Below are positions 20,286 to 43,626 of a DNA stretch of 64,000 nt, one piece after another. The stretch comes from Isoetes taiwanensis (Eukaryota; Streptophyta; Lycopodiopsida; Isoetales; Isoetaceae). The stretch covers positions 16,420,283 through 16,484,282 of the forward strand of contig JAJEKV010000026.1 in assembly GCA_021234155.1 (NCBI GenBank), read 5' to 3'. How positions within the stretch are numbered: position 1 is the stretch's first letter; the number at the start of each line of letters is the position of its first letter. The translations under genes were made by a program, and so were the position numbers. The notes under the pieces were generated by a model. That model ran no database searches. It was not told the origin of the DNA and worked only from the letters and a program-made list of their open reading frames with translations.

Positions 20286-20984
20286 AGATGCTCCTAGCTA
20301 GGACCCCTTAGATCCCATTAAATGCGACATGTGCACAAGAGCCCACCGGGTTGTGGATGCTATGATGTGGTTCAGCACCAAATAACAGTCACAAGTGGTG
20401 AAGTGGGGGCGGAGCCTTGCTGAGCGTGGCCACTGGGGCTCCTACATTGTGCTAGACTTATAGTCGGTCACTATGTGTGGGCGAGGTATGGGTCTGACAC
20501 CTCCTGGGTTGCAGGAAGCGTGCCTATATGGACGCCCTGGACTCGCTATAGATTTAGGGGGATAAGTCGGGTATGGATGCGTGTGCGTCCGGGTGGCATG
20601 TATCCTCTAGTACATCCATGGAACCATTGTGATTATGGAGGGGATTCATCCCTTTCCTGCCTCATCGGACTGGGGAGATTTAACCTGGAGTAGTTTCATG
20701 GGTAACTCCATGAGATTGCATCTTCGGACGGCTACAACTATGCCATAGCATGATTCAGCCTATCTGCAAGGTGTGCATAAGAGGGGCAGATGGATTGGAC
20801 TACCCTAGCCATTGTTCTATGCCAGCCAACGCCATGTTATACTTCTGTCTGCTATTATCCGGAGGCCTTAACTGTCAGTCAGCCCCACAGAGTCTGAGCC
20901 CGGGGTAGAGCCTCATTTATGGTGTATTTCTTATATTATGTTGGCATTGTATTGTTGCCTATATGGAATATGGATGGACCACCC

Positions 20985-30491: not shown

Positions 30492-30496
30492 CCAGA

Positions 30497-32084
30497 TGTG
30501 ACGTTCCACGTATTTATACGGTCTACTATACGGGACACGTACAAATACGAGCACGTCACTCCCTAAAGGTACGCTACCATGGGGGTATGGGAACTTAATT
30601 GCAACCTTACAAAGGATTAAATTAGCTATGCTAATTTAACACATTATTAATAATAACCTATAACCTAGGAAATTAGGATAATTACCAATTGGGAAGGCGC
30701 CACCTGCCCCAATCGATTGGCAAAGATGGGGATTGCCAAGTTTGGATGCCAACTTGACCCCTATCCCAGGATTGACTCAAGATCGACCAAGGAAGGCCGG
30801 AGCTGAGCCATCAACCACCAGAGAACCGCCATACCGCGTCCCCTCGAAGCCACAAATGAATCTTCAACCGCCAGAGATGGAGGCCCATGGGAATGAGTCC
30901 AGCCAAATTCGTAGGTGGCTATGTGAATTCTAGTTAACACTTGGTTGTGTCCGGCTTTTCTCTGTTCTTTTTTTGTAATTCACCATAGAAACTAACCCTT
31001 GTTTGTACAAACAAGTTCTCTTTATATTCAATTTTGGTTCTTACTCAAAGGATGGATTGTTAATTCTTTGTTTGATCCGACTCAAAAGCGGGGGGATTAC
31101 GGGGTAGAGGCCTCGAACCGTATCTGATAGTATGCTCCTAGATAGCGCCCTGTAAAGTCCCATTACTTGCGGCCTGTGCACAAGAACCCACCGGGTCCTA
31201 GATGCTATGGTCTGGCTTAGCACCAGACAAGGAACACAATGGTGACATGAGGGGTGGGGTCTTGCATGAGCATACAAGGCTCCCCGAGACTCCTACAAGC
31301 AATGGGGCTAGGCGATGGCCGGTCACGTTGAGGGCCGGGTATGGGTCTGACACTCCCTGGGTGTAGTGGTGTGATCCGTATGGAGCACCATGCACTTTGA
31401 GTAGATTTAGGGTGAGTAAGTCGGCTACGGATGCGGGGGTCGCTGATGCGGCACGTATTCTCTAGCTCACCCATGGAACCACTGTGATTCTGGAAGGGGA
31501 CGCCTCCCCACTGCCTCATCTCATCGGACCAGGCGTCATGAACCTGGAGTAGGCTCAGAGGGTGATGCCCTGAGTCCTGCGTCTCCGGAAGGCTATAGCG
31601 AAGCCATAGCATGAATTGACCCATCTGCAAAGTGTGCACAGGAGGGGCGGATGGAGTGGACAACCCTAGCCAATGTTCTACGCCAGCCAACGCCATGCCA
31701 AGACTCGGTCTGCTGATCTCTTGAGGCCCAAATACGGTCGATCCCCCACGGAGTCCGGCCCGGGTAGAACCCGGGTTTGGGTGTTTTCTTAGGATTAGAT
31801 GCATATTCTATGCCGTTGGTATTTTGATGGATGTGCCACCCTTCGGGTGGTTATTTATGTATATTATATCGTCTGTGTGCTAACCCTTGTATTCATGCTT
31901 CCGCTGACGTAGGAGTCCCATTGAAGGGGCGAATGAATGACCCTTCATGTCCTTCTTCGGGCCTCATTTCATAGATGGCCCGAAATAGACGGAGGGCCCT
32001 GCTCATGGTGAGATGATCGCCATGGGAGGGGAAAGTCCCCGTATGTATACGTCCGAGGGTCGTATATATTCTGGGAGCGTCACA
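30497..32084 (+). repeat. 5' LTR of gypsy element 2
   Basis: This 1588-bp LTR is highly similar to 42000-43604. Its termini TGTGACG and CGTCACA are perfect 7-bp inverted repeats. A TATA-like stretch (CTCTTTATATTC) sits near 31018-31029. Differences from the 3' LTR include several CTG-versus-C or CG changes, for example CCTCGAACC here against CCTCTGAACC in the 3' LTR. Confidence 0.95.
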
Positions 32085-32085
32085 G

Positions 32086-32098
32086 TGGTATCAGAGCC
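32086..32098 (+). promoter_or_regulatory. Primer-binding site, tRNA-iMet type
   Basis: TGGTATCAGAGCC begins one base after the LTR end. It is the standard plant LTR-retrotransposon primer site, complementary to the 3' end of initiator methionine tRNA. Confidence 0.93.
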
Positions 32099-33232
32099 GT
32101 GATTTCGGTTGTTCGAAATCATAGCACTCGCCAAACACTAACTTCGTAACGGGTAGTTAGGGAGGAGGCTAAGTCAATGTGTCGTTAGTTCTCTTTGTTG
32201 TTTGGTTTGGTGTTAGGTTAAGTTAAGAGATTGTAGCTTTGAAGTGGAGGGGCCAAGATTGAGGCCTAGCGGGTGCCGATGGGTAACTCAAATGACAAAG
32301 ATGATGGCTCCATTGGATTGGGCGCACTCAATTACCCTAGAACAAATAACTCCAGCTTAAAAATAGTCAAGGGCAGGCCCAAAAACGAATTCGGGCGCCG
32401 CTTGCTTTTTGTCGCTTTGCAGTCAAGTTAGAAGCGCCGAATTTGCCGGCCGCCCGCCGTGATTCGAAGTCAACGCTGGCCGCCAGGTCAACTTCGAGCG
32501 CCAGTATTTTGACGACACCCGGTCGAGGCGTAAACCCGTTATAATGCCATCGGCGCCGACCGCATGTGGCGTATTTCCGCCGTATATTTTTTAATAATAA
32601 AATTTTGAAGTTAATAAGAAAAAATTTGAAATTTTAAAAAGTTAATTGGCGTTTAGCAAACCATTTTCGTCATTTGCTTTTGCTTCGCGCCTCCAACCGC
32701 TGAGCCGCCCTCCGCCATCGCCAATCGGACCGACCTTGATATCAGCCCTTTGTGCTTTGTGCCTCCTAGCGCCCCTCCCTCTTATCCCGGCGCCTCACTA
32801 TTCCCTATGGCTATTACCAAGAGCTCCCGGACCCGTCCACCATGAGCATCGTGGAGATCTCACGCCATGATTGCTAAGCACATAATACTTGACCCCAGCC
32901 CTCATCGACATCTTGTTGGATGAGCCGGGTCAATAGGTTTGAGAACAATGATAGGATTCCATATCCCGCCTATCACTTCTCGAGCCATTCCTCATCCCGG
33001 CTGAACCTCGCGCCAGCCCCTATACCCTTGTTGAGCAACCTCGATATGGTGATGATGCTCATCAAATTTTATCCTCCCCAACAAGAAGGCCATACGGAGG
33101 GAGGAAGATGTCGAGGCCGGAGGCCGACCGGGATTAGGGTTTTGCCCGGAAGACGACCACCGGGAATTGAAGCGGTCTGACCGCGGCAGCGGGGGTAGGG
33201 AGTACGGTACCTGAGACGGTTTTGCGTCATCG
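32099..33232 (+). other. Leader of gypsy 2, no clear coding block
   Basis: Apart from short frames (such as 32646-32870 and 32920-33180) with biased Pro/Ser/Arg composition, nothing recognisable lies between the primer site and ORF A. The stretch alternates between GC-rich and AT-rich parts. Confidence 0.5.
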
Positions 33233-33556
33233 ATGGCGAGAGCCATTGAGGTTCCCCATACCAATGGCATGAGGGTTCCAACAGCTTTGTATGGGGGAGA
33301 AATCCCGACATTAGCATAGACTATCCGACCACTATTCGGATAGATATGGGTCTCAAGCGGCCACAAAGGTACCATCAACTTAATCGCCGTGTCCGCAGCC
33401 CAACTTTTTGCTCAGATCCAAGAAGACCTAAGGAGAGCTTCGAAGAGCGCCGAGAAGTTGGAGCAAGAGGAGCGGGACCGACAAGATCACGGGACCAACA
33501 GGGAGGAGGTGCATCCGGGAGTGGCTCAACCCAAAACCGACGCATCCGACCGCTAA
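33233..33556 (+). pseudogene. ORF A of gypsy 2 5' region, with two in-frame TAG codons
   Basis: From ATG 33233 to TAA 33554-33556 there are exactly 108 codons in one frame, with only two interruptions, both TAG. The predicted peptide starts MARAIEVPHTNGMRVPTALY. After the second stop it continues IWVSSGHKGTINLIAVSAAQ and then a charged, helix-prone stretch (LRRASKSAEKLEQEERDRQD). Both TAGs lie where CAG (Gln) would read well, consistent with C-to-T change at CHG sites. The family is not recognised; it is not a typical gag. It lies just upstream of the histone-like block, and the two might have been one reading unit. Confidence 0.5.
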
Positions 33557-33744
33557 GCTCAAGGAAGGGAGTTGCTCATAAGGCCTGGGCAATAATACAA
33601 GGATAAGTTAAAGACCGGCTTCGGCTTTTGGGAAGAAGACCAGCTCCGGCCGGGAGGCAAAGCAGAGTGGATAACTCCCGGTTCTTTGGGGCTAAGACTC
33701 GGTGCCAACATCGCCGGGGCCTCGGCCGCAATGGAAGCCTCATC

Positions 33745-34039
33745 TGCCCGACCGGCATCGCGGGCATTGCGGGGAGATCCGCGAAATTTCGAAGTCCACG
33801 GACCTTCCGATCGAAGAAAGTGCCCTTTTCAGAGGCTGGTAACGGGAGATCGCAACAGCAATTTAAGACCGATCTCCGTTTCCGCACCTTTTGTAATTTT
33901 GGCGCTCCAAGAGGCTGCTGAAGCCTACTTGGTAGCACTTTTTGGTGATGCCAACCTTTGCGCTATCCACGCAAAGAGGGTCACCATAATGCCTAAGGAT
34001 TTAGCCCTCGCCCGTAGGATACGGGGGGAGCAACCTTAG
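33745..34039 (+). pseudogene. Histone H3-like histone-fold domain carried by gypsy 2
   Basis: Blocks of histone H3 follow one another in the correct order, in alternating frames. ALREI-like sequence lies near 33760, PFQRLV at 33824-33841, FKTDLRFR at 33862-33885, and then a continuous frame to TAG 34039 contains [32 protein letters not shown] and [14 protein letters not shown]. These cover alphaN through alphaC of the histone fold. Loop 1 has canonical H3 length rather than the longer CENH3 form, but residues such as GDAN and KDLAL differ from canonical H3. Most breaks are one-base homopolymer changes or CAG/CTG shortened to CG. An H3-type protein would enter nucleosomes with H4. A recognisable N-terminal tail is not clear; an Arg-rich stretch lies upstream. 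It could be a captured host H3 variant. Confidence 0.85.
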
Positions 34040-34241
34040 CCTACTTGCGGGGATCCGCATTTGTACATATTTTTTTTTGTGATAATTAATAAAGAAGCTT
34101 TTATTTTGAATTAAAAGTTTAATGTTTTTTTCATGTTAAAATTAAAATAAAATGCTGACATCAGCTTTATTAAGAGGGTTTAAAAGGGGACTGTAGGGTT
34201 ATTTTAAACGCTTCTTTTCCTCTCTCCTCCCTTCTAGCGCC

Positions 34242-35650
34242 ATGGCTGCCGCCGCCGACCTTGCTGCCTGGTACCTTGATGGAGAGAAATGGGATCCACA
34301 GGTTCCCTTCGACCTGCTGCAGCCTTTGCTATGCCAACGCATAGATCTCCTTGCCAACATGCAGCGGCATCCGGACTATGCCGGATTCCTTGACTTTTAC
34401 ATGGAGGAAATGCTTCCTCTGTGTATTCCTCTAGGGGATCCTCCCCACTTGTATTTGGAGAGGGAGATAGTTCGGCAGATGCTAGGCGGGGACACACATG
34501 CTTATGACGTCTTGAAGGGGAAACTCCGATGGGGTAAACACCTACCTATGTGGTCCAAAGATCGTGGGCAGCAGATCCGGAAGCTACTTTAAGCTCTAGC
34601 CATCCTCATGGACCAATACATTGAGGATGAAACCTTGCTTACGGGCAGAGAAGGGCAAGCTGCGGGGAATCCTCGAGAGGAGGGGATGACGAGCATATAG
34701 GAATGGGCTTACTTTGGCGTTGGAAAGAGCTAGCGGAGGAGCTACCACCGCCGCGTGACCAATCTATAGGCTTGTCGGGGGTTAGACGGCCTTCCGCTTA
34801 TTTATCACCGGGGCGGGAATACCTTCTCTTGGATGATATTATCCGGGCGTATCACGTGGTGGCGGATTTAGACGCAAAGCGCAAAGACCATGTACTTTAT
34901 GAGCTTGCGGAGTATTGTATGGATGATTTCATCGACTTCACTTCTACCGAAGCCTCGAGGTGCACCAGCTGCCGCTTGCAGTTCCGTCCGAGACCCTAGA
35001 GCCTACGGAGACTCTATTACGTCTTCATGACTTCGTGATGCGAGAACCGGCTTCGCGCTTTCGCACTGAATGCCTTCACGGCTATGGGACCTCACGCCCC
35101 AAACATTAATATGGTTGAGGTTCCCTCCCACTTCGGATGATGAGGGTGAAGATTTATATCATAACCCTCGCGATAAGAAGGAGGAGCAACAGGAGCTCAA
35201 GGAGGAAGAAGTCCCCATGGACTTGGATAAGGAAGTGGCCGATCCTAAACTCCAAGGGGGAAGGTGCCGGGTAACCACCTCACCCGTTTCTTTTTATCGG
35301 CCTTCAAATACGGGCGAGGTTCTCTTTATAGCCCCGACTTAGGGCCTGGAGGCTGAAGCTTCATGGTGGGCCCTCCGCACTTTCTACACTCGCCGGCCAC
35401 AAGAAGCTTCCCTATCGACGCTTTTCGTATGTACTGCATCGACGGGATCTTGCCCTTACGCCTTGGGCCAGGATATTGCGCCTTGGATGGGCATGAAGCT
35501 CCTCACGGCAGCCCCATTGGCCGTTGCCTATCCACCAGAGGTTGCATCTGTTGCGGCGGCCACCGTGGACCCTGGGGTAGCTCTGCTGCGACACCGACCG
35601 CCTCCACCACCTCCTAGGGCTAAGGATAAAGAGGCAGGGCCTAGTTCCTG
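34242..35650 (+). pseudogene. ORF X of gypsy 2 5' region, unknown protein in several frames
   Basis: The frame begins at an ATG in a strong context (GCGCCATGGCTGCC), about 200 bp after the histone-like block and a short AT-rich gap. The first 116 codons (34242-34592) are intact and encode an acidic/Leu-rich protein with LAAWYLDGEKWDPQVPFDLL and GFLDFYMEEMLPLCIPLGDP. Coding-like sequence continues in shifted frames through 34703-34999, 35070-35342 (Glu-rich, EEEVPMDLDKEVADP) and 35363-35650. A CT-rich leader (TTTTCCTCTCTCCTCCCTTC) precedes the ATG, so it may have its own promoter. I do not recognise the family. Confidence 0.5.
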
Positions 35651-35673
35651 ACTAAGGGTGCTATATAAATTTT

Positions 35674-35674
35674 G

Positions 35675-35704
<30 letters not shown>
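35674..35704. repeat. (TA)n microsatellite
   Basis: This is an uninterrupted TA run followed by CACACA, immediately after the end of ORF X. Such tracts are slippage-prone and serve as local markers. Confidence 0.9.
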
Positions 35705-35706
<2 letters not shown>

Positions 35707-35869
35707 GTTGTTATGAGATTTTGGATTGGCAATTGTTTAAACCATATTGAAAAATGTGTACCTTATCTACTTATTAAATACAAAGTTTTCTTGATGAGTA
35801 TAACTAAATTGTTTTTTTATGACATCCTCTTCCAAAGCATTAAAGTTTAGGGTATAGTGGAATTACCAA

Positions 35870-36151
35870 ATGTTCTCTATTCACTCCAACTATGTTGCAG
35901 AGGAACCCATTTGGGAGTATGAGGAAAGAATCACCGACATGGTTAGGAGGGACGATCCCGGGCTGCCAGACCAGGACTATGGTCAGAGATATGGTGAATA
36001 TCCAGAGTGGGAGGAAGGCTATGAAACCGAACCACCGCCACCAGGGGAACTCTACCACGACAAAGGGCCGGAGATAGTTAACATCCTTAGGGATCGAAGC
36101 TTTCGAGGATCCAAGATGACCCCGTATGCGCACAGGACTACCGGAATATGA
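35870..36151 (+). CDS. ORF Y of gypsy 2 5' region, acidic small protein
   Basis: This uninterrupted 93-codon frame encodes an acidic, Tyr-rich peptide (WEYEERITDMVRRDDPGLPD, then YPEWEEGYETEPPPPGELY). There is no known domain. It lies between ORF X and gag in an element where the 5' LTR is normally followed directly by gag. It may be part of the gag N-terminus displaced by frameshifts, or an accessory protein. The initiation codon is uncertain because the upstream sequence is also open in this frame for a short distance. Confidence 0.35.
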   Translation: MFSIHSNYVAEEPIWEYEERITDMVRRDDPGLPDQDYGQRYGEYPEWEEGYETEPPPPGELYHDKGPEIVNILRDRSFRGSKMTPYAHRTTGI

Positions 36152-36993
36152 CCAGCACGCGAAGCCTTCGAGGGCGCCAACGACCATCTTTGGCAACTCT
36201 TTTTTATGCGATGCGAAGGCTCTTTAACCTTCGATTATCAGCCCAACATGGGAGTACCAAGCAATCATTGTCCAAGCACGGCACGCTATAAACTTCGTCC
36301 GAAGCCGCGGGGAGAGTACCCTTCTGTGATCCTCAGTACCCCTTCGCCAACCCCTAGGCTTGGTCTCTTCCGTTGTGTTTTCGTTCTTTGTGGTTACTGT
36401 TGGTGCCATGAGAACTTTAAAAGTTCCCATTGTATCATACCTACTTTTGTCTCAATCCATGTATCAATCAACCCGTTGTTATAATCAACTTGAATGAAAT
36501 ACAAATATTGTCTTCCGCTTGTATATACTTTTGTTCAATTAACTTAAAAAGGGATTGCACATTAATGTAAATCGCTTATATATTCATGAATGACTCCTAT
36601 AGGCGGTTATGCGTAATGTAACGCAGCAAACACCCTCCAACGCCGATAGGGCTCACCCCTAACGAGAATTGATGTTAATGAAAAGGCAACTTCGGCGAAG
36701 TTTCTGAGGCTTATGTGTTGCATACCAATCCATCGCCACATACTCGGGAGGACGGGACCCGAATTACCTCAGCGACCATTGAGTCCACACTGCAAGACAA
36801 CATCTCCTCCCGAGCTAGCCCATGCACTGCATGAGGAGGACTCATGCTAAGCGTCATCGGTTCCTCTAAGGATAGCGCCGCTTCCCTCACATTCAACCAC
36901 TTCGGTTCTTCGGGTCCTCGCTATCGAGGCGATGATCATTCAAAGGCGTAAGGATAAGGAATACCGAAAAACCGTTGATACCCATCACTAGTA
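36152..36993. other. Gap between ORF Y and gag in gypsy 2
   Basis: This is mostly AT-rich spacer with two short frames on the plus strand and none with a recognisable motif. A purine-rich stretch near 36940-36990 leads into gag. Confidence 0.4.
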
Positions 36994-37900
36994 TATGGAA
37001 GAACCTAAGCCGGCTCGGTTTGATGGGAAATCCAGAGGAGGCTTGAACGCCTTGAGAATCTTGGTTGGACGAAATGAAGGAATTCGGGAAGTCCTATGGA
37101 ATGACAGAGAAAGATACAGGGAAGGTCGCCACCACGAACCTTTACCGAGCTGCCGTTTTGGTGGAAGGGTTACGCCGAAGCTAAACACCGGATAGGAGCG
37201 GATGCAAGTTCGGAAGTTTGCTAAGGCTTTTAAATCGCATTCGTGCCTCGCTAGCACAAATGCCAACAGATTCAGACCTTCTACAAAAGTTGGAACGTAA
37301 GGGCATGTCCGCGCAGGCCTACAATCGGCAATTCATCGCGCTTGAGGTTGTATGTGCCAGGAATGAATGAGAAAAGAGCAAAGAGAGGGCTACATTGAAG
37401 GGTTGGCCCCATCTATTAAACGAATGGTCAAGGCTATCGACCCAAAGTCGATGCAGAGGCGAGGGAAGCTAAGGCATTAAGCCTAGAGGAAGACACGCCA
37501 AGGAGCCAGATCCGCGACCTGTTCCTTACTGCAGCCACCGGTCAGCCCACACCTTACAAACCCCGCTAAGCCAAGTCCGGGGCCCTCTCAAAGACAATTC
37601 TTATGGACGCCAGAGAAGAAAGTTGCTTTCAAAGACGGATAAGCGAGAACAATGCCGGCAAGGAAATTCGGGCCTCCTCTGTCCATTCCTAAAGAGGCGG
37701 AGAACAGCTCCCGCCGGATAAGGCATGCTACCGGCAGATGAGGCCTGACACTTCATGCGACTGTCCGTGCGTCCACGCAGATCGCTCAAACCGCCATGGC
37801 CGGCCTGGATTGGGAAGATTTGGAGTCCAATCTTGCTGCGCGGAAGACGAGGCTCCCGAGTACATTCATGGTGCGCCTCATATTCTTGCCGCTATAGAAA
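36994..37900 (+). pseudogene. Gypsy 2 gag (frameshifted)
   Basis: The block starting MEEPKPARFDGKSRGGLNAL has the PxxFxG pattern with which plant gypsy capsid domains begin. It is followed, in other frames, by a block with SAQAYNRQFIALEV-like sequence (about 37305-37350) and a polar, Arg-rich stretch. No intact CCHC zinc knuckle could be read. The assignment rests on position directly upstream of the protease and on the capsid-start pattern. Gag would form the particle and package element RNA. Confidence 0.6.
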
Positions 37901-37929
37901 CAGTAACGCCGAAAGTCACCTTACATTAT

Positions 37930-38290
37930 TTCTACAATAGGCCAAGTAGACAAGAAGCCCTTCATAATTTTGATGGACACGGGTAGTAATGCATAATTTT
38001 GCTTCTCCTAGAATGGCCCGTCTTCGCGGTGGAAACATTGAGATCCCGACCTAAGCCGGTCCACATTAGCTAGCGGTAAGATCGTACACACACTCATGGC
38101 CAGCCGTATTAACCTTAAAAATGTACCGCCAGTGCACCAGTTGCCTTGGGTGCCGAAAGTTAATGGACATTGGCAAATATGATCTTATTGTGGGAATGGA
38201 GTTTTAGCGTCGCTAGGGCCCACATAGACTGTGAGAAACGGAGGGTCACCTTCAACGCGTTGCTAATGGAGCACGTGTGACAATAAAAGG
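37930..38290 (+). pseudogene. Gypsy 2 aspartic protease
   Basis: KPFIILMDTGSNA (about 37955-37993) contains the catalytic DTGS at 37976-37987. A downstream block KYDLIVGMEF (about 38175-38205) corresponds to the conserved ILGMDWL-type motif of chromovirus proteases. Frameshifts and stops separate the two. The enzyme would cleave Gag-Pol. Confidence 0.8.
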
Positions 38291-38394
38291 TGATTCATTA
38301 CACTCAAGCTATGCAAATAATGTCAATAAAGCGACTAGGAAAAGCTATCGCGAGAAATGAACTTCTTTGCCTCATTAAACTTGCTTTCCCTTGA

Positions 38395-39840
38395 GCTCGG
38401 ACTCCAAACAAAGACAAAGTAATCGACGCTTTACCATCGGACATTGCTACCCTTCTTCGAGAATTTAGCGATCTTTTTTCGGATGAGATCCACAAGCTTC
38501 CTCCTTTTAGAGGGGTGGAATGTGAGATAACTCTTGAACCGGGTACTAAGCCTACCAGCAAAGCCCCGTACCGAATGAGTCCTCCGGAGTTAGCAGAGCT
38601 TAAGAAACAGCTACAAGAGTTACTGAATTTGGGGTTTATTCGGCCTAGTGTTTCACCATTTGGCGCTCCTATTCTTTTTGTCAAGAAGAAAGATGGCTCC
38701 TTAAGGATGTGTATTGATTATAGGCAACTCAATAAGCATACCATCAAGAATCGCTATGCTTTGCCTAGGGCGATGATCTTATGGACCCGATTACAAGGAG
38801 CAAAAATATTTCTCAAAAGATTGATTTAATTTCTCGGGTACCATCGATAAGGATTAAGGAAGAGGACATCTATAAGTCTGCTTTTCGTACCAGATATGGG
38901 CATTACGAATTCACTGTCATGCCTTTTGGATTGACCAACGCCCCTGCAACGTTTATGCGGTTGATGAATGACATCTTCCGCCAATACTTGGATGACTTTG
39001 TTGTCATTTTCTTTGATGACATTCTCATCTATAGTAAAACCTTGCAGCAACATGAACAACATCTTCGATTAGCTTTGCAAAAGCTAAAGGCGCCATCGAC
39101 TCTTTGCCAAGTTCTCTAAATGCAAGTTCGCCACTCCGAGGGTAGACTATTTGGGACATATTATCTCAGCAGAAGGAATTGCTACAGACCCAGCTAAGAT
39201 AGAAGCAGTAAAGGATTGGCCCATTCCAGCTAATGTTTCAGAGGTCCGGAGTTTCTTGGGACTCGCAGGATATTATCGGAAATTTGTTAAGGATTTTGCA
39301 ACAATTGCCGCACCTCTTACTAATCTCACAAGGCATGAAAAAGTAAAGGATTGGATGGAACATTGGAAAACAAAAGTCCAAGTCGGCTTCCAGAAGCTCA
39401 AAGATGCCTTAACATCTGCACCAGTCCTTACCTTGCCTGATCCTGAAAAGGATAAATCAGTAGCCACCGACGCTAGTAAGATAGCTACTGGTGGAGTTCT
39501 AATGCAGGAGGGGAGAGTTGTTGCTTACGATTCAAAGAAGATGAACGATGCGAACAAATGATACCCTACCCATGACCGTGAATTGTTGGGCGGTTGTTCA
39601 TGCTCTCCGTATTTGGAGACACTACCTTCTTGGTAGAAGATTTCAGCTTTGGATACGGATCATCGAGTCTCCGTTATTTATCCACCCAAATAAATCTGAA
39701 TCTCCTTGGCAAGCGAGATGGATGGAATTCCTCGAGGAATATGACTTCGAGATTGTATATAAACCAGGGAAGCACAATGTAGTTGCGGATGCTTTGTCAC
39801 GTCATCCCTTCATAACCCGCACCCATTGTAATGCCATTTC
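38395..39840 (+). pseudogene. Gypsy 2 reverse transcriptase and RNase H (frameshifted)
   Basis: RT blocks occur in order: [47 protein letters not shown], a broken LMDRL-GAK segment at 38775-38830, [26 protein letters not shown], and the catalytic [13 protein letters not shown] (about 39000-39040). The connection domain ([16 protein letters not shown]) and RNase H follow with [14 protein letters not shown] and IVYKPGKHNVVADALSRHP. The break near 38775-38850 consists of single-base homopolymer additions and a CAG-to-CG change within a conserved motif. It may therefore be a consensus error rather than decay. Confidence 0.93.
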
Positions 39841-39989
39841 CACACTCACCAGTGAGTTTGGGAAGCAAATAGAACAGACCTTGGTCACAGATCCCGAATT
39901 CTGTAATATTTGGGAAAGCTTGGGTAAGGAAGCCCGTACAGATAGAGAACGGGAAGCATTCCGTTCATATAAGAAGGAGGGCAATTTAT

Positions 39990-41105
39990 TATATTACAAA
40001 GATAAGTTGTGTGTTCCAGCGACTTGAAGGTGCGAAAGCCGATGCTCCATGACACACACACAACGCCCTATAGCGAGACATGCGGGTTTTATGAAAACTT
40101 ACTTTAAGATCCGCTCCAGCTATTTTTGGCCTTCCATGAAGAGGGATATTGCTAGGTACATCAAACAGTGTCAGGTTTGTCAACAAACCAAGGCTGAGCA
40201 ATTAAGAGTTCCCGGGGAGTTGCAACCTTTGGATGTGCCCAACGCCAAGTGGGAAGTCATAACCATGGATTTCATTGTGGGGCTTCCACGTACTCTCCGT
40301 GGGTATGATGCCCTAATGGTCGTGGTCGACAAATTATCAAAGATGGCTCACTTCCTGCCATGTCGCACCACGGATACCGCCTTCGACACCGCCTTGCTCT
40401 TTGCAAAAGAAATTTTCAGGTTGCACGGGGTGCCGAGAGTAATTGTATCGGATAGGGATCCTAAGTTTGTCAGTGCATTCTGGAAGGATTTCTTCGCCAC
40501 CATCCAGACCAAGCTTGCCATGAGTACAGCCTACCATCCTCAGACAGATGGTCAAACAGAACGTGTCAATCGTATTATCGAAGATATGCTAAGAAGCTAT
40601 GTATGGAGTAAACAGTCACAATGGGCGGATTATATTTACCTGGTGGAATTCGCCTACAACAGTACAAAGCAGGAGTCTTCTAGAATGTCTCCCTTCATGA
40701 TAAATTATGGCTATCAATGTCTTACTCCAGACACATGGCATAATCCTGTTTCTAAAGTGGAGGTCTCTCAACAACTCCTTTTAGAAATGCAGGCCTTGGT
40801 GGAAGAAGTTCGGGGTTACTTATTGGCTGCGCATGCGTCCGTCGAAGAGTTTAGCGGATAAGCACCGAACCCCACGAATCTTCCAGGTGGGCGAATCAGT
40901 TTGGCTTAAGATCAAAGTAAAACAAGCCAAGCTTAAAATTGGTAACTGTAAGAAGTTGGCACCCAGATGGGCTGGGCCATTCAGGATTACTGAACGTGTG
41001 GGAGAACAAGCATATCGCTTGGACTTGCCACCCCGCTTGAAGATCCACAAGGTCTTTCACGTGAGTCTTCTGAAGCAACACACCCCTGATCCAGAGGAGG
41101 TTTTG
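39990..41105 (+). pseudogene. Gypsy 2 integrase, core nearly intact
   Basis: The zinc-binding domain spans 40045-40200 (His residues in HDTHTTPYS and HAGFMKTY, then CQVCQQTKAEQ). The DDE core runs in one frame from 40049 to 40861. First Asp is in ITMDFIVGLPRTLRG, second in VIVSDRDPKFVSAFWKD, and Glu in QTDGQTERVNRIIEDML. The C-terminal part (40833-41105) has LAPRWAGPFRITERVG and KIHKVFHVSLLKQH, the GPF/Y module of chromovirus integrases. One frameshift near 40070 lies where CAGG would be expected but CGA is read. Confidence 0.93.
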
Positions 41106-41109
41106 GATA

Positions 41110-41340
41110 CCCCTACCCTCCTAGAAATGACCAAGAGCAGTTGGAAATAGTGCCCCTCAAGCTCTTCTTGATCGAGCTTACAAGCAGTACGAGGAAGGAC
41201 TCAAATGTTGCAATACTTGGTCAAGTGGAAGCACTTACCGGTTGAAGATGCTACCTGGGTGATGAAGATAGACCTTGAGAAGCACTATCCGGACTTCATG
41301 CGGGAATCTCAAGGCCGCACCATCAACGATGCTATCAACC
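41110..41340 (+). pseudogene. Gypsy 2 chromodomain at integrase C-terminus
   Basis: After a frame change the sequence reads LLDRAYKQYEEG, then LQYLVKWKHLPVEDATWVMK and LEKHYPDF. This is the YLVKWKxLP...ATW core of chromodomains found at the end of chromovirus integrases, where they guide integration to particular chromatin. The aromatic cage is only partly recognisable. A chromodomain beside a histone H3-like block elsewhere in the same element is noteworthy. Confidence 0.8.
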
Positions 41341-41986
41341 CCGCTCCCGGCGGTAAGCTTGAAGGCTTGATTGACCGAGAATCATGTTTTAGAGGGGTAG
41401 ACGCATCGTATATGATAGTAATAACCGATGATGAGATCACCTTCGTGTTCTCTAGGACGTGGTGTATTGTTGATGTTGACATGACCGCGAATTGCTAGGA
41501 AGGCATCTAGTAAATAGATCTGCGTTAGTTTACGCTATAAGAGGAATTGCAAGCCGCATAACATGATAGATTCCCTTCTAGATATTTTTTCTTTTATTTC
41601 TAGGGGTGGTCCCCGCAACCACAACTTAATCATATTATTAACCTACGGTGTATATGCTTCGTGGGGCCAATGAACAAGTCGTCCACCGCCTTGTATAGAG
41701 GGTTGCCGATGACCCAACTTGTCCCGTATTGGTTTTGTCTACATGTATGAATTTTGTTGTCGAATGTTTTAAATGGGACTCGGTCCTAAACTCCTTTGAT
41801 CATAAGTTTGTATCGAGCACCACGGTGCTTGTACTTTGATATTTTAACTTCAATGTATTCTTGTCCAAATTACTATAATCTCAACGTATTAATAATGTTA
41901 TATTCTTAACTTCATTCTCTAATTCATTGCTTTTACGATATGTATTCAATTAGCTAACCCTAATGCCGAGGGGCGGCATTATTTTT
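41341..41986 (+). other. 3' untranslated part of gypsy 2
   Basis: This is AT-rich sequence between the chromodomain and the purine tract. One short open frame (41205-41498) overlaps the chromodomain end. No second gene is visible. Confidence 0.55.
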
Positions 41987-41999
41987 AAGGAGGGGAGAA
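41987..41999 (+). promoter_or_regulatory. Polypurine tract of gypsy 2
   Basis: AAGGAGGGGAGAA lies directly before the 3' LTR start at 42000, the expected plus-strand primer. Confidence 0.9.
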
Positions 42000-43604
42000 T
42001 GTGACGTTTTTACGTATTTATACGGTCTACTATAATGACACGCATTACAAATACGAGCACGTCACTCCCCAAAGGTACGCTACCATGGGGGTATGGGAAC
42101 TTAATTGCAACCTTACAAAAGGATTAAATTAGCTATGCTAATTTAACACATTATTAATAATAACCTATAACCTAGGAAATTAGGATAATTACCAATTGGG
42201 AAGGCGCACCTGCCCCAATCGATTGGGCAAATGGGGATTGCCAAGTTTGGATGCCAACTTGACCCCTATCCCCGGATCGACTCTGAAGATCGACCAAGGA
42301 AGGCCGAGGGAGGCTGAGCGCCATCAACCACACAGAGAACCGCCATACCGATGCCCCTGTGAAGCCCGCAAAAATGAATCTTCAACCGCCAGAGATGGAG
42401 GCCCCCATGGGAATGACTCGGCCAATTCAGTAGGTGGCTATGTGAATTCTAGTTAACACTTGGTTGTGTCCGTCTTTCTCTGTTCTTTTTGTAATTCAGT
42501 CATAGAAACTAACCCTTGTTTGTACAAACAAGTTCTCTTTATATTCAATTTTGGTTCTTACTCTGAAAGGATGGATTGTTAATTCTTTGTTTGATCTGAC
42601 TCTGAAACGGGGGGGATTACGGGGGGGTAGAGGCCTCTGAACCGTGTACAGTAGTATGCTCCTAGATAGCGCCCTGTAAAGTCCCATTACTTGCGGCCTG
42701 TGCACAAGAACCCACCGGGTCCTAGATGCTATGGTCTGGCTTAGCACCAGACAAGGAACACAGTGGTGACATGAGGGGTGGGGTCTTGCATGAGCATACA
42801 AGGCTCCTGAGACTCCTACAGTGGGCTAGGCCTGATAGCCGGTCACGTAGAGGGCCGGGTATGGGTCCGACACTCCCCAGGTGTAGTGGTGTGATCCGTA
42901 TGGAGCACCATGCACTTTGAGTAGATTTAGGGTGAGTAAGCTCTGCACGGATGCGGGGGTCGCTGATGCGGCACGTATTCTCTAGCTCACCCATGGAACC
43001 ACTGTGATTCTGGAAGGGGACGCCTCCCCGACCTGCCTCATCGGACCAGGCGTCATGAACCTGGAGTAGGCTCAGAGGGTGATGCCCTGAGTCTGCGTCT
43101 CCGGAAGGCTATAGCGAAGCCATAGCATGAATTGACCCATCTGCAAAGTGTGCACAGGAGGGGCGGATGGAGTGGACAACCCTAGCCAATGTTCTCGCCA
43201 GATAACGCCATGCCAAGACTCGGTCTGGCTGATCTCTTGAGGCCCGGCCGTCCGGTCCGATCCCCCACGAGTCTGAGCCGGGGTAGAACCTGGGGTTTGG
43301 GTGTTTTCTTAGGATTAGATGCATATTCTATGCCGTTGGTATTTTGGATGGATGTGCCACCCTTCGTGGTGGTTATTTATGTATATTCGTGCTGTGTGCT
43401 AACCCTTGTATTCATGCTTCCGCGACGTAGGAGTCCCATTGAAGGCGTGGGCCGAATGACCCCTTCGTGTCCTTCTTCGGGCCTCATTTCATAGATGGCC
43501 CGAAATAGACGGAGGGCCCTGCTCATGGTGAGATGATCGCCATGGGAGGGGAAAGTCCCCGTATGTATACGTCCGAGGGTCGTATATATTCAGGGAGCGT
43601 CACA
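42000..43604 (+). repeat. 3' LTR of gypsy element 2
   Basis: This 1605-bp partner of 30497-32084 has the same TGTGACG...CGTCACA ends and is followed by the target duplication CCAGA. Small indels against the 5' LTR recur at CTG/CAG sites; for example CCGCGACGTAGG here is CCGCTGACGTAGG in the 5' LTR. Confidence 0.95.
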
Positions 43605-43626
43605 CCAGACTCACTCAAACGTACAG

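Follow-up and report, generated by a model that had tools for sequence, protein, structure and literature searches.

The 64,000-nucleotide stretch of the Isoetes taiwanensis genome analysed here (contig JAJEKV010000026.1, positions 16,420,283 to 16,484,282; hereafter the window) harbours a chromovirus LTR retrotransposon whose additional first gene (ORF1) encodes a protein with a histone H3 fold at its C-terminus, and copies of this element elsewhere in the genome encode the same fusion as a single open protein. ORF1 is under strong purifying selection, and its neutral carriage is excluded. On the strength of the sequences, we consider it somewhat better than an even chance (probability approximately 0.55) that this chromovirus family carries a captured and selected H3-fusion protein that enters nucleosomes and marks or tethers chromatin for the element. 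Such retrotransposons may, in other words, supply a chromatin building block of their own.

The element occupies positions 30497-43604 of the window (all of its genes and signals being on the forward strand) and has both ends present: it is flanked by a 5 bp target site duplication (CCAGA, 30492-30496 and 43605-43609) and bounded by a pair of LTRs (5' LTR 30497-32084, 3' LTR 42000-43604; K2P distance 0.077) that both open with TGTGACG and close with CGTCACA. The 5' LTR is directly followed by a primer binding site, TGGTATCAGAGCC (32086-32098), which we take to be of the initiator-Met tRNA type, and a polypurine tract (41987-41999) lies ahead of the 3' LTR. Downstream of ORF1 (32807-34039) the interior comprises an AT-rich spacer (34040-34241; 95-97% identity in three copies), two further genes designated ORF A (34242-35651, approximately 470 aa, broken in the window and open in some other copies) and ORF B (35870-36357, approximately 160 aa, open in three other copies), a gag region (36590-37900, end approximate, broken), a reverse transcriptase (RT) region (38395-39561, frame-broken) and an integrase (40028-41150; PF17921, PF00665 and PF24626). 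The chromodomain found at the integrase C-terminus (41172-41495; PF00385, E 2.5e-7, over the cut-off) identifies the element as a chromovirus. Because the window frames are broken, the Pfam matches for gag (Retrotrans_gag PF03732, in L029) and for protease and RT (RVT_1, in L031) were taken from relatives; the window pieces of gag, RT, integrase and chromodomain align with sister copies at 85-98% identity, and the order gag, protease, RT, integrase (window and sister copies combined) is that of Ty3/Gypsy elements. Elsewhere in the window, a segment at 20288-20933 is 72% identical to the LTRs of the element and perhaps represents a related LTR, with no H3 match nearby.

A sequence-only reading of this DNA had placed an H3-like block between the primer site and gag, inside the LTRs of a chromovirus, and this placement is borne out. 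For the stop-free frame at 33596-34036, the match to solved H3 sequences has an E of 1.9e-24 and that to the Pfam Histone family (PF00125) an E of 1.2e-18, a similarity far beyond chance (by which a fortuitous H3 resemblance was ruled out), and the second-best H3 match anywhere in the window has an E of 0.25. In a frame-tolerant alignment the block covers H3 residues 13-135 at 33653-34033 and is identical to plant H3.3 at 80 of 116 aligned residues. It lacks introns and is interrupted by 7 frame breaks; taken alone, it would resemble a captured pseudogene. The block is thus real and in place, but it does not stand free, as it is the C-terminal end of the protein that begins at 32807, and while it does lie upstream of gag, ORF A and ORF B are situated in between.

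Within the window, ORF1 consists of an N-terminal domain (N-domain) of approximately 176 aa (32807-33334, end approximate), a coil-like stretch with a basic linker that replaces most of the H3 tail (33335-33734, limits approximate) and the H3 histone fold (33735-34039), which contains the block noted at 33745-34039. It is frame-broken here and open in relatives, the open copies encoding 400-425 aa with the same succession of N-domain, coil, basic linker and H3 fold. This fusion of H3 to a conserved N-terminal domain had been absent from the sequence-only reading. An open ORF1 protein (P0001, from locus L008) matches PF00125 at 3.2e-41 and the H3.3 chain 7ux9_E at 3.3e-52; the N-domain has no match in Pfam or in the PDB, and an AlphaFold model of ORF1 (24 sequences; mean pLDDT 45.2) was too poor for use. 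Codon 55 of a 463-codon frame is the probable start of the protein, since the leader upstream of this codon has dN/dS values of 0.32, 0.52 and 2.1 in three close pairs (L008, L014 and L024), as against approximately 0.1 or lower in the parts downstream; with such a start, the histone would make up the last quarter of an ORF1 of approximately 409 aa.

The position of the H3 part is shared among unlinked elements. Three elements on three contigs have the order LTR, primer site, ORF1, AT-rich spacer, ORF A, spacer, ORF B, gag and RT, two of them being followed on through integrase, chromodomain and 3' LTR and that of L014 being traced from the 5' LTR to RT, where the fetched stretch ended; the elements of L008 and L024 have target duplications of their own (GACAT and CCAAG) and LTR distances of 0.064 and 0.042, respectively. 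Furthermore, ORF A lies 3' of the H3 part in 15/15 further element loci (1.5 kb flank each), and the most divergent ORF1 (L084) has the same integrase and chromodomain at the expected distance (chromodomain match in L085); near L061 (stretch L086) neither was found within the 3 kb examined. That a host gene or another transposon is nested in one element only, so that the block would belong to a single copy, is contradicted by this shared gene order and barely conceivable. Support for nesting was not found either, as the inverted repeats are at most 24 bases long and imperfect (among the 25 of 61 pairs listed), and a Pack-MULE or other nested transposon was rejected, no long framing terminal repeats being among those listed.

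ORF A and ORF B, the two extra genes between the H3 gene and gag, each lie behind an AT-rich spacer, and neither has a Pfam match. For ORF A the median dN/dS is 0.10 (8 loci open over at least 380 aa; 21 of 28 pairs, 7 being excluded with dS not computable or <=0.02), which indicates purifying selection. In L053 and L059 the H3 part is of the same type as in L033, and the ORF A next to it shares only approximately 46% identity with the ORF A of L033; it perhaps constitutes a second, older ORF A lineage. A weak ORF A-like match (24%, E 7e-9) is located upstream of the H3 part in L051 (2454-3170); the idea that ORF A is a copy of the ORF1 N-domain was dropped, as this match was not upheld by further comparisons, and the corresponding idea for ORF B was likewise not borne out. 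In L031, which belongs to the element of L014, a nested insertion of approximately 4.9 kb splits the spacer between ORF A and ORF B.

A search of the plant's own genome (1.66 Gb) with the 444-base H3 block of the window (40 places scored of 1,372 candidates) recovered the window and at least 39 other places at 86-89% identity and nearly full length. Among the 28 of these 40 places that were read, the H3 fold runs from KPH to its end in a single open frame in 14, and an unbroken frame of 463 codons is present in three (L008, L014 and L024). When canonical plant H3.3 served as query, 150 of 9,031 candidates were scored, and these comprise at least 15 host-type H3 genes (97-99% identity, full length in one piece) and at least 135 element-type copies (72-87% identical to canonical H3.3), the latter class being confirmed by an adjoining ORF A in the 15 of 135 with fetched flanks and assigned by identity in the rest. 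In 45 of the 135 scored element-type copies the frame stays open for at least 400 aa, measured from stop to stop, with the H3 match free of stops; in 8 of the 135 a stop falls inside that match. The N-domain, used as query, gave at least 150 matches at 80-100% identity (150/150 scored, of 3,299 candidates). Scored copies are spread over dozens of contigs and set a lower bound for the copy number of the family, which could possibly reach thousands. As a separate observation, L092 (5.4 Mb of contig C1052) contains an rbcL-like open frame of full length, which may be plastid DNA that resides in the nuclear genome, and L093 a plastid-like one. Four LEAFY matches and the plant-like rbcL are in keeping with a land plant.

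These copies bear on the possibility, raised in the sequence-only reading, that a host histone was captured passively and is carried by chance as a dead pseudogene, an impression that the frame-broken window copy and the lack of a full open frame in 25 of the first 28 loci read would favour. The dN/dS values, far below 1 in all three parts of ORF1, argue against it. They were obtained from loci whose open frame spans at least 395 codons (n=27); L057, L078 and L080 were removed (no start fitting the pattern), and the 24 with a recognised start were aligned. Median dN/dS is 0.029 for the H3 fold (275/276 pairs), 0.063 for the N-domain (205/276 pairs) and 0.212 for coil plus linker (269/276 pairs), after exclusion of pairs with dS not computable or <=0.02 (1, 71 and 7 of 276, respectively), with median dS of 0.7-1.2 across the parts. 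The choice of open frames favours intact copies, which alone cannot make silent changes exceed others tenfold. In the L008, L014 and L024 set, dS of the H3 part (0.04-0.06) is lower than that of N-domain and linker (0.10-0.42), a possible sign of gene conversion, of recombination or of constraint acting on synonymous positions.

Part of the frame breaks, moreover, may not be genuine. Differences between the two LTRs of the window element are clustered (58% of neighbours within 3 bases versus 23% by chance), and ORF1 indels recur at the same sites in a set of 26 copies (L003 lying outside it), with one 6-base bin hit in 16 copies against a shuffle maximum of 11 (n=1,000). The 436 indels of 23 broken copies (a set that does not include L003, L008, L014, L020 and L024) fall at CAG/CTG 2.25 times and at CCG/CGG 1.86 times as often as expected, and at A/T runs only 0.52 times as often. 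We infer that methylated sites in a long-read assembly would yield such a pattern, and a part of the breaks are possibly assembly errors in methylated transposon DNA; shared descent may lie behind some indels. On this account, the copy in the window may in fact be more intact than its letters suggest. With recurrent CAG/CTG-enriched breaks pointing to assembly errors for a part, at least 135 copies (45 of the 135 scored being open) and the dN/dS medians above, passive carriage is very improbable.

A tree of the fold DNA (99 codons; 62 rows, all of them element or host-type H3 of this one genome) places 47 element rows, among them the frame-broken L022, on one side and 15 host rows on the other (100/100). 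This clean split agrees with a single old capture of a host H3 by the element, which is what we infer. Between element (n=45) and host (n=15) H3, median dN is 0.119 and median pS 0.96, the latter being beyond correction and therefore partly a matter of codon bias. Shared position, tree split and low dN/dS together uphold the proposal, made earlier from the letters alone, of a co-opted divergent H3 over that of a passive capture.

The 99-residue element fold aligns without gaps to host H3 and keeps the host majority residue at 85 of 99 sites, the 14 changed sites being 36, 41, 54, 59, 77, 86, 87, 89, 102, 105, 107, 124, 125 and 134. Lysine 36 is replaced by arginine in 45/47 element rows, and site 87 is phenylalanine in 46/47. 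The motifs GDAN and KDLAL, previously singled out as departures from canonical H3, prove to be near-fixed features of the family (105 G in 44/47 rows, 107 A in 45/47, 124 L and 125 A in 46/47). Host chaperones distinguish between types of H3 at sites 86-90, of which 86, 87 and 89 are changed in the element. Lysines 56, 64, 115 and 122 are retained in 23/23 proteins (tallies covering 23 of the 24 proteins, L068 being left out).

The N-terminal side of the fold is a different matter. A canonical tail (K4, K9, K14, K27, K36) is not present, and the linker and the N-domain stand instead; a K27-like lysine (KTxP) nevertheless occurs in 24/24 proteins, in only 2 of them at the canonical distance from P38, and the string ARKS is found within the linker in 6/24. 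Judged by these motifs, the tail has not simply been cleared of marks. Beyond KTxP and ARKS the canonical tail is not traceable, its place being taken by the basic linker, a long coil-like stretch and the N-domain.

Centromeric H3 variants (CENH3) are characterised by a longer loop 1 and a strongly divergent fold. The element might be thought to mimic such a variant and thereby steer its insertion to centromeres, the more so as some plant chromoviruses are centromeric (PMC3059260, as far as its accessible text goes). We regard this as improbable: the fold is near canonical H3, with no CENH3-type loop-1 insertion relative to host H3 (in keeping with the initial judgement that the block is H3-like rather than CENH3-like), and copies lie on dozens of contigs.

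The fold sites are as well conserved as those of a functioning histone, and on this ground the H3 fold of ORF1 may pair with host H4 and enter nucleosomes as an element-encoded H3 variant. The N-terminal domain would then be displayed from the nucleosome in place of most of the H3 tail and could bind a partner encoded by the element (ORF A, ORF B, Gag or integrase). A selected histone fold could also serve a different task, and the main rival to a nucleosomal role is that the H3 fold acts as a DNA-packing or dimerising part of the virus-like particle or pre-integration complex (nucleocapsid-like), or as an H4 trap. In favour of this alternative, ORF1 immediately precedes ORF A, ORF B and gag and has a long coil-like stretch and a basic linker, such as a particle protein might have; the fold dN/dS of 0.029 is tighter than simple DNA packing would seem to need, and retention of the host residue at 85/99 fold sites likewise weighs against it, which leads us to see it as rather unlikely.

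Host plants silence transposons via histone-tail marks. Under the nucleosomal role that we prefer, the changed tail and the lost K36 might blunt the marks set by the host, either by way of nucleosomes on the element's own copies that would resist tail-based control, or by way of marked host nucleosomes that would direct the particle, along with its chromodomain integrase, towards permissive sites. We propose, tentatively and at less than even odds, that a private H3 variant with a displayed N-domain and a chromodomain integrase constitute a self-made landing and anti-silencing system, which the lineage would have maintained for a long time. The H3-fusion nucleosomes that it would load on to chromatin would be devoid of K36, and the tail marks used by host silencing and transcription would no longer stand in their usual context. 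The K27-like lysine in 24/24 proteins and the ARKS string in 6 weaken this proposal.

In the open-licence literature (subscription papers and preprints being outside this scope) we found no retroelement-encoded histone. The nearest likeness is found in Dothideomycete fungi, where hAT DNA transposons transduplicate histone H3 and many of the copies in Pyrenophora tritici-repentis are putatively or transcriptionally active (PMC6710886, accessible text). In both cases an intron-less host H3 coding sequence was captured and multiplied by a mobile element; the fungal carrier is, however, a DNA transposon rather than a retrotransposon, the copies of the Pseudocercospora group are mostly truncated and RIP-inactivated whereas those described here are under purifying selection, and the available passages of that source mention no fusion, in contrast to a retrotransposon ORF fused to another domain (PMC6710886). 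Orchid Ty3/Gypsy elements offer a parallel, in that a plant Gypsy lineage has there fixed an additional domain of host origin, an AlkB-like m6A demethylase proposed to counter host control (PMC9289625, main text). The same survey reports 15 extra LTR-element domains in 121 angiosperm genomes, and the nine that one of its sections names (PMD, G-patch, AIR1, DUF1409, YgdH, L26, B3, ArgoL2 and 2-ODD) include no histone; the main text, figure and supplement aside, mentions histone twice and never as an element-encoded domain (PMC9289625). Retrosat2, RIRE3 and RIRE8 resemble the present family as long plant elements with an extra gene between the 5' LTR and gag-pol, but their ORF0, for which the portion of the article at hand mentions no histone, evolves faster than the retrotransposition genes (PMC3485330).

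Outside retroelements, the bracovirus histone CpBV-H4 is likewise a histone supplied by a parasite, and its N-terminal tail is of consequence once it has been built into host nucleosomes; it is, however, an H4 of an insect polydnavirus and bears a tail rather than a separate N-terminal domain (PMC5423620, in the part available). Giant viruses and their relatives also have genomes with core histones of their own, yet these are DNA viruses and their fused forms are doublets to quadruplets; the accessible text of the review concerned makes no mention of a retrotransposon or retrovirus (PMC9145170).

Among LTR elements the H3-fusion gene is an accessory gene of a new kind; the family also brings with it three conserved proteins without an assigned fold (ORF A, ORF B and the N-domain). 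Element copies may swell the number of histone genes counted in such genomes, and the element H3 offers a natural test of which parts of H3 are dispensable. If the nucleosomal reading is true, a transposon-encoded H3 with a replaced tail would amount to a direct attack on, or use of, the very chromatin meant to keep the transposon in check.
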